This document shows positions 40,366 to 40,853 of a DNA stretch of 47,300 nt, piece after piece. The stretch lies in NCBI GenBank assembly GCA_015068725.1, contig SVKA01000012.1, forward strand, positions 1 through 47,300, in the 5' to 3' direction. Origin of the DNA: Oscillospiraceae bacterium. Lineage in GTDB: Bacteria > Bacillota > Clostridia > UBA1381 > UMGS1253. The notes under the pieces are model-generated. The model was not told the DNA's origin. It made no database searches and worked only from the letters and a program-made list of their open reading frames with translations. Numbering within the stretch: the stretch's first letter is position 1; each line of letters starts with the position of its first letter. A program made the translations under genes and the position numbers.

Positions 40366-40394
40366 TTGATAAATTATAAAAAATGTGGTATTAT
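40366..40394 (+). promoter_or_regulatory. Promoter of the structured RNA
   Basis: TTGATA-17-TATTAT with TGG before the -10. The predicted start, 7 bases after the -10, is 40401, exactly the first base of the closing stem of the RNA. Confidence 0.6.
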
Positions 40395-40400
40395 AATTAT

Positions 40401-40611
40401 GCCAAACAAACAGAATATGTTATGCGGGATTGATGTATATTTTTTCTTTGGAATAATATGCTTATTTCTGCATACAATCATTTTAGAATTTGATAAAAAT
40501 GCAAATTCCATTATGGTTGTATGTAAATATACCTCATACTGCATAAAGTTTGTTTGGCGACAATCGGGGTTTGCGTTTTTTATGCGTCGGCTTCGGTTGG
40601 CGCATTTTTTA
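40401..40611 (+). ncRNA. Candidate structured non-coding RNA or regulatory leader, rod-shaped
   Basis: Both ends of a 158-base segment pair perfectly: GCCAAACAAAC (40401-40411) with GTTTGTTTGGC (40548-40558). Inside follow TTATGC / GCATAA, TGA / TCA plus GTATATTT / AAATATAC (40435-40442 with 40525-40532), CATACAATCAT / ATGGTTGTATG (40471-40481 with 40513-40523) and AATTTG / CAAATT (40487-40507). A 5'-side bulge of about 28 bases interrupts the rod and may hold a small hairpin. A UUCG-loop terminator ends the transcript at about 210 bases. Length and shape recall 6S RNA, but I cannot assign a family; a riboswitch-type leader for the next ORF is the alternative. Confidence 0.6.
40582..40610 (+). 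terminator. UUCG-loop terminator of the structured RNA
   Basis: ATGCGTCGGC-TTCG-GTTGGCGCAT (10 bp with three G-T pairs) followed by six T. The ribosome-binding site of the small ORF begins 5-6 bases later, as expected of a read-through or attenuation device. Confidence 0.85.
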
Positions 40612-40630
40612 ATTTAAAGGAGAGATTGTT

Positions 40631-40768
40631 ATGCCAGATTACAAAAGCATGTACCTCGATTTGTTTAATTCAGTTACCGACGCAATCGAAGTACTTAGCG
40701 CGGCGCAGAAAAGAGCCGAGGAAGTGTATATCACCTCATGCGAAGGCGATGAAGAAACGGACGAGTAA
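40631..40768 (+). CDS. Small protein of 45 residues
   Basis: MPDYKSMYLDLFNSVTDAIEVL followed by SAAQKRAEEVYI and an acidic tail, ending in TAA. The AAAGGAG ribosome-binding site is 8-10 bases upstream of the ATG. The sequence forms one amphipathic helix, and I recall similar short clostridial proteins with a YLxLFNxVTDAI core, often left unannotated. The function is unknown. Its position just after the terminator of the structured RNA implies expression by read-through, or from an unseen promoter. Confidence 0.7.
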   Translation: MPDYKSMYLDLFNSVTDAIEVLSAAQKRAEEVYITSCEGDEETDE

Positions 40769-40794
40769 TCTTTATCTGTGATGAACTCAAATAC

Positions 40795-40834
40795 AAAAAA
40801 AGGTTGTGATAAAATTTTATCACAACCTTTTTTT
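40795..40834. terminator. Bidirectional terminator between the small ORF and groEL
   Basis: A perfect 20+20 palindrome, AAAAAAAGGTTGTGATAAAA and its complement. Confidence 0.92.
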
Positions 40835-40853
40835 GTAGTATAAGCGGTTTTTA

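Follow-up and report, generated by a model that had tools for sequence, protein, structure and literature searches.

Within the window, as we call the whole 47,300-nt stretch of DNA analyzed here, a promoter-like sequence, a long rod-shaped fold and an intrinsic terminator lie one after the other on the forward strand, and a small gene encoding a 45-aa microprotein begins directly behind them (Table 1). A preliminary description of this DNA had interpreted the segment as a gene of its own of about 210 bases. Our results support a compact structured RNA with a promoter, a rod and a terminator, but one that is a 5′ leader and is not 6S-like: the terminator lies only about 20 nt before the ribosome-binding site and start codon of the next gene, with no space for a second promoter in between. 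The same description had seen no credible protein inside the segment, and this was borne out by the open reading frames that cross the region, which are not kept among homologues. Because the homologues differ by indels, we rejected a protein-coding reading. An upstream open reading frame starting from the AUG in AAAAAUGCAAAUUCC was rejected as well, as inspection revealed ACG or another codon at this place in about one-quarter of the units.

Table 1 Features of the leader unit and of the gene behind it (positions in the window)
Feature	Position	Strand	Basis or remark
Promoter TTGATA-17-TATTAT with extended −10 TG	40366..40394	+	Promoter-like sequence; ends 6 nt upstream of G40401
P1 closing stem, 5′ strand, and inferred transcription start at 40401	40401..40411	+	Fold; pairing among homologues
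5′ bulge AGAATATG, 8 nt, with conserved AATA; candidate recognition site	40412..40419	+	Fold; between P1 and next helix
P2/P3, 5′ strands	40420..40441	+	Partners 40526-40546
Side hairpin at three-way junction, flanked by U-rich strands	40450..40468	+	Fold; alignment
P4 arm	40469..40525	+	40469-40481 pairs with 40513-40525
Apical hairpin GAATTTG/CAAATTC	40486..40508	+	Mutually exclusive with long-range pairing; 84.9% paired
Long-range pairing, rod-tip strand AAAAATGCAAATTCC	40495..40509	+	15 nt fully complementary to linker 40566-40580
P1 closing stem, 3′ strand	40548..40558	+	11 perfect pairs with 40401-40411
Antiterminator, 5′ strand, core CAATCGGGG	40561..40571	+	Partner 40589-40599
Linker strand GGGGTTTGCGTTTTT	40566..40580	+	Partner 40495-40509; GGGG common to antiterminator
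UUCG intrinsic terminator and U run	40582..40610	+	Stem 40582-40605; 40591-40599 is antiterminator 3′ strand
Shine-Dalgarno AAAGGAG	40616..40622	+	Sequence
45-aa microprotein MPDYKSMYLDLFNSVTDAIEVLSAAQKRAEEVYITSCEGDEETDE, gene behind leader	40631..40768	+	ATG at 40631

The first base of the perfect 11-bp closing stem (P1) had been taken as the predicted transcription start, and both the promoter and the stem were found as described, with the 3′ partner 137 nt downstream. Is this precise spacing kept among relatives? Among 75 homologous units, the −10 lies exactly 6 nt from the first stem base in 64, the extended TG is present in 70, and the spacer is 17 nt long in 66. Selection of these units had required a P1 of 7 bp or longer and a −10-like box nearby, whereas exact distance, TG and −35 played no part in it. 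The extractor that applied this selection retained 11 of the 15 class-level loci found by a covariance model built from the 3′ part of the element and lacking the P1 5′ strand; a direct look at the four loci that it dropped revealed that their P1 is also long (11 bp or more).

The predicted fold of the whole unit has a minimum free energy of −71.0 kcal/mol (z −7.84), and none of 200 shuffled sequences folded as well. Inside P1, it contains the nested helices 40420-27/40539-46, 40431-33/40534-36, 40435-41/40526-32, 40469-81/40513-25 and 40486-92/40502-08. The earlier proposal of a rod with nested stems and a 5′ bulge thus stood with respect to the helices and the bulge, but not as a plain rod, because the extra side hairpin turns the structure into a rod with a three-way junction. 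A linker of about 22 nt (40559-40581) joins P1 to the UUCG terminator, which sits at the end of the unit as had been stated and is also kept among homologues. The minimum-energy fold contains the antiterminator (40561-40571/40589-40599) and not this terminator. The rod alone gave z scores below −3 in all 75 units; its sequence is free to vary, the exceptions being P1, the AAUA bulge and the tip. The AATA of the bulge was found in 65 of the 75 units, versus 34 expected from shuffled sequences.

To examine pairing, we used a main alignment of 38 full-length sequences. P1 was paired at 97.8% across these homologues, with two-sided changes in 9 of its 11 pairs. A second pairing, which is absent from the minimum-energy fold, joins the rod-tip strand to the linker over 15 bp; it was 99.5% paired and was complete in 34 of the 38 sequences. 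The test of P1 and this long-range pairing counted 88 cells with two-sided changes, compared to 20 after shuffling, and its slid controls were 34 to 49% paired. Over all pairings examined, pairing fell to 30 to 49% when the 3′ partners were slid by 1 to 3 columns. The antiterminator pairing 40561-40569/40591-40599 was 98.5% paired, likewise with two-sided changes. The apical hairpin, which excludes the long-range pairing, is more weakly kept (Table 1). The preliminary description had named stems unconserved or uncompensated among relatives as the observation that would speak against it; we found instead that the stems are strongly compensated.

Pairing is specific to each unit as well. In permutation tests on the 75 units, each linker preferred its own rod tip over permuted ones (−17.9 versus approximately −15.7 kcal/mol; P ≤ 5 × 10⁻⁵) and also its own terminator over permuted partners (P ≤ 5 × 10⁻⁵). 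Pairing is kept despite changed sequence in variants such as L035, L071, L079, L085 and L138. In L138 the linker has become CGAGAG and the terminator loop CTTTCG, with both pairings preserved, and in L196 and L197 the rod-tip pairing is, by eye, preserved with other letters. The A:U pairs of the rod-tip/linker helix do not vary. As judged from these alignments, each of the four elements, namely, the closing stem, the long-range pairing, the antiterminator and the terminator, is retained across units and shows covariation.

Can the linker serve both of its partners at the same time? Both pairings need the same GGGG, so the rod-tip pairing and the antiterminator are mutually exclusive. Two features expected of an attenuator were found, namely, a conserved structured 5′ leader directly before a coding sequence and a mutually exclusive terminator and antiterminator that are both conserved. 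We consider it likely that the element is a cis-acting transcription attenuator, that is, a riboswitch-like leader, a judgment that concerns the mechanism and not the type of signal. In the proposed mechanism, RNA polymerase would begin at 40401, the rod would fold first and be closed by P1, and the linker would emerge next. The linker could then reach across P1 to the rod tip and form a pseudoknot with it, in which case the antiterminator would be impossible, the UUCG terminator would form and transcription would stop after an RNA of about 210 nt (OFF). Alternatively, the 5′ half of the linker could pair with 40589-40599, in which case the terminator could not form and the downstream gene would be transcribed (ON). 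Whether the rod-tip strand is available would be decided by a signal that acts on the rod, be it a metabolite, a second messenger or a protein at the AAUA bulge, the junction or the tip. The parts of the RNA most likely to be specifically recognized are the AAUA bulge, which is conserved, and the A:U pairs that do not vary.

Energies calculated for the window copy differ by 3.7 kcal/mol between the antiterminator state (−71.0 kcal/mol) and a forced terminator (−67.3 kcal/mol), and the terminator together with the long-range duplex reaches about −75 kcal/mol with no pseudoknot penalty counted; the states are thus near-balanced. When the 3′ part was folded alone, the antiterminator was favored in 65 of the 75 units. 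Given this preference and the near-balanced energies, the simplest model would be that a bound tip means OFF and a withheld tip means ON. Counting against this geometry, the linker starts at the base of the rod and would reach the tip only if the three-way junction folds back. The weaker conservation of the apical hairpin, short forms with no convincing gene behind them, two copies in the same genome with half of the rod missing and downstream genes that point to no ligand also weigh against the attenuator. What we infer here is that the leader is transcribed, which state is its default or in which direction it switches, and that a signal is involved. The predicted switch, in which one linker has two exclusive and covarying partners, is directly testable on short transcripts.

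The preliminary description had likened the RNA to 6S RNA, with which the element shares a length of about 200 nt, a rod shape and a promoter of its own. This resemblance did not hold. Of the 6S and riboswitch families whose Rfam covariance models had been suggested as a check, none matched in the window, and a genuine 6S RNA (RF00013, 78 bits) lies elsewhere in the same genome (G000:C24:12351-12534:+), so we rejected a 6S assignment. The element also differs from 6S RNA in having a three-way junction and a side hairpin in place of the symmetric central bubble, in being multicopy and in sitting before a ribosome-binding site and ATG. More generally, the element was unmatched by Rfam in the window and in 20 loci with relatives, and the weak matches within the window lay far below gathering scores.

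The preQ1-I, fluoride and ZTP riboswitches form a pseudoknot between a loop and the 3′ strand that is coupled to a terminator directly before the gene; the preQ1 family is reviewed in PMC11625349. The element resembles them in having a pseudoknot tied to a terminator just upstream of a gene, but its pseudoknot would compete with an antiterminator and in this way leave the terminator free (predicted OFF), and its aptamer-like part is a rod of about 158 nt with a three-way junction that has no Rfam match. T-box leaders are similar in being long structured leaders of Clostridia that occur in many copies and set a terminator against an antiterminator; the T-box model (RF00230) did not match the element, and no T-box sequence was seen in it. 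Separately, a T-box leader lies beside one of the units (L029, 1773-2015, +), and a Gut-1 RNA (RF01706) lies near another (L122, 2330-2400, −). The c-di-GMP riboswitches of Clostridia, for example those of C. difficile, are described as occurring in many copies per genome and as controlling surface and biofilm proteins (PMC7865049, PMC6447587). The element has the same multicopy surface-gene pattern but a different architecture, and the c-di-GMP-I and -II models of Rfam did not match it. Fremin and Bhatt (2021; PMC8040213) reported candidate structured RNAs from human microbiomes directly upstream of gut-bacterial genes; a keyword search of the text of that article found no match to the element, although its supplementary tables may list a fragment. 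Literature searches and keyword searches of the structured-RNA surveys consulted likewise yielded no description, and an earlier mention under a code name is possible. The element is best read as an undescribed, widespread family of leader RNAs of the riboswitch or attenuator kind.

How widespread is the family? The genome itself carries four copies that are 81 to 91% alike, namely, the window copy, a full copy on C28 (81%) and two copies, on C3 and C17 (C17:6600), in which the 5′ half of the rod is missing; both of the latter precede paralogues of the microprotein gene. These deletion variants (L003, 1480-1615; L137, 380-512) retain the rod-tip strand, the linker and the terminator, and in the C3 copy a new TATAAT adjoins the rod-tip strand. 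A blastn search of 60 relatives gave matches in 42 of 61 genomes. Using the covariance model, we found the element in 72 of 95 genomes at the level of the order, with a maximum of 24 copies each, in 90 of 391 genomes at the level of the class and, in a phylum-wide sample of 299 genomes, only in its own genome. Where a matching record names its sample in the title, it is a metagenome-assembled genome of animal-gut Clostridia. A phage or plasmid origin was rejected, as plasmids gave no match, the one match among phages, to a record from human faeces, was weak, and the hits of the pattern in viral contigs looked like chance by eye. Some units are arranged in tandem (L065, L055 and L138); each of these is complete, including promoter and terminator, and they precede a single gene or no gene at all. 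Behind the short forms at L070, L077, L090, L139 and L144, no convincing gene follows on the same strand within 260 nt, and a number of copies may therefore be RNAs that stand alone. Being present in most genomes of the order and in about one-quarter of the sampled Clostridia genomes, in up to 24 copies and with none in Rfam, the family would be one of the more abundant regulatory RNAs of gut bacteria that await description.

Most units stand before a gene. A same-strand open reading frame starts within 260 nt in 76 of 77 units, at a median distance of 31 nt and with a clear Shine-Dalgarno sequence in 59, although some of the frames behind short forms look spurious. Signal-peptide-like N termini, called by a crude hydrophobicity rule in proteins of at least 90 aa, were found in 42 of 55 downstream proteins compared to 39 of 187 background open reading frames (P = 8 × 10⁻¹⁴). 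Pfam domains encoded downstream include LRR_5 (LRR/BspA), copper-amine-oxidase N, SLH, NPCBM, dockerin, ricin-B and Big_2. On the basis of these gene neighborhoods, the regulon appears to consist mostly of surface and secreted proteins, together with a small protein that carries the MPDYK motif. With such targets, the leader would account for switching of the cell exterior in these uncultured bacteria; it also offers a defined handle for finding the signal.

What might the signal be? The downstream genes suggest no ligand theme. One possible reading, somewhat less likely than not, is that gut Clostridia have a new class of riboswitch, with a small molecule, perhaps a signaling molecule, that sets the 15-bp pseudoknot and thereby controls dozens of surface-protein genes and the microprotein. 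Within the same attenuator model, the main alternative is that the sensor is a protein or a trans-acting RNA that binds the leader, as in protein-dependent antitermination. We regard this as possible but doubtful: a large AU-rich rod with the sequence freedom described above would suit a protein, as would many copies before unrelated genes without an obvious metabolite theme, but the genes behind the leaders do not consistently encode a candidate RNA-binding protein.

It is unlikely that the element is a stand-alone small RNA, 6S-like or base pairing, which lies near genes by chance and whose read-through is incidental. The promoter and strong terminator of each unit, the tandem copies with promoters of their own and the short forms that have no same-strand gene would fit such an RNA. 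However, most units have a ribosome-binding site and ATG about 20 to 30 nt past the terminator, the covarying antiterminator is specific to each unit's own terminator, and the true 6S RNA is encoded elsewhere. Rod tips also differ within one genome and match their own linkers, unlike a shared trans-acting seed, which the linker/rod-tip permutation test disfavors. Quite unlikely, too, is a temperature or ion sensor, in which melting of the rod-tip/linker pairing would require no specific ligand; the AU-rich tip and the near-balanced states agree with it, but the animal-gut samples in some record titles suggest a stable temperature, and both the conservation of the AAUA bulge and the lack of variation in the A:U pairs point to specific recognition. 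A selfish, MITE-like palindromic repeat whose terminal inverted repeat mimics the closing stem is highly improbable in spite of the multiple copies, the stem at the end of the rod and the truncated copies in the genome, and we rejected it because the stems, including P1 and the long-range pairing, covary and the copies diverge with compensatory changes, while promoter, linker, antiterminator and terminator are conserved outside the inverted repeat, placement near genes is precise, and plasmid and phage matches are nearly absent.

Turning to the gene behind the attenuator-like leader in the window, the 45-aa family shares the motif MPDYKxxYxxLFNxITDxIExL, and searches of Pfam, PHROGs and NCBIfam with this family gave no convincing hit. 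Within the order, the RNA lies directly upstream of the microprotein gene in 25 of 30 loci (E ≤ 0.013), and two further loci carry the RNA by eye (L189 and, at a contig end, L169). Elsewhere in the class the link looks looser, with the RNA at about 12 of 21 loci. A fourth paralogue in the genome (L216, 168-296, on G000:C17) follows a tRNA and a plain hairpin and has no copy of the RNA. In the window, a hairpin of about 20 bp that is almost perfect and rich in T on both strands occupies 40787-40843 between the convergent microprotein and groEL genes; it had weak chance hits to microRNA models and is probably a bidirectional terminator.
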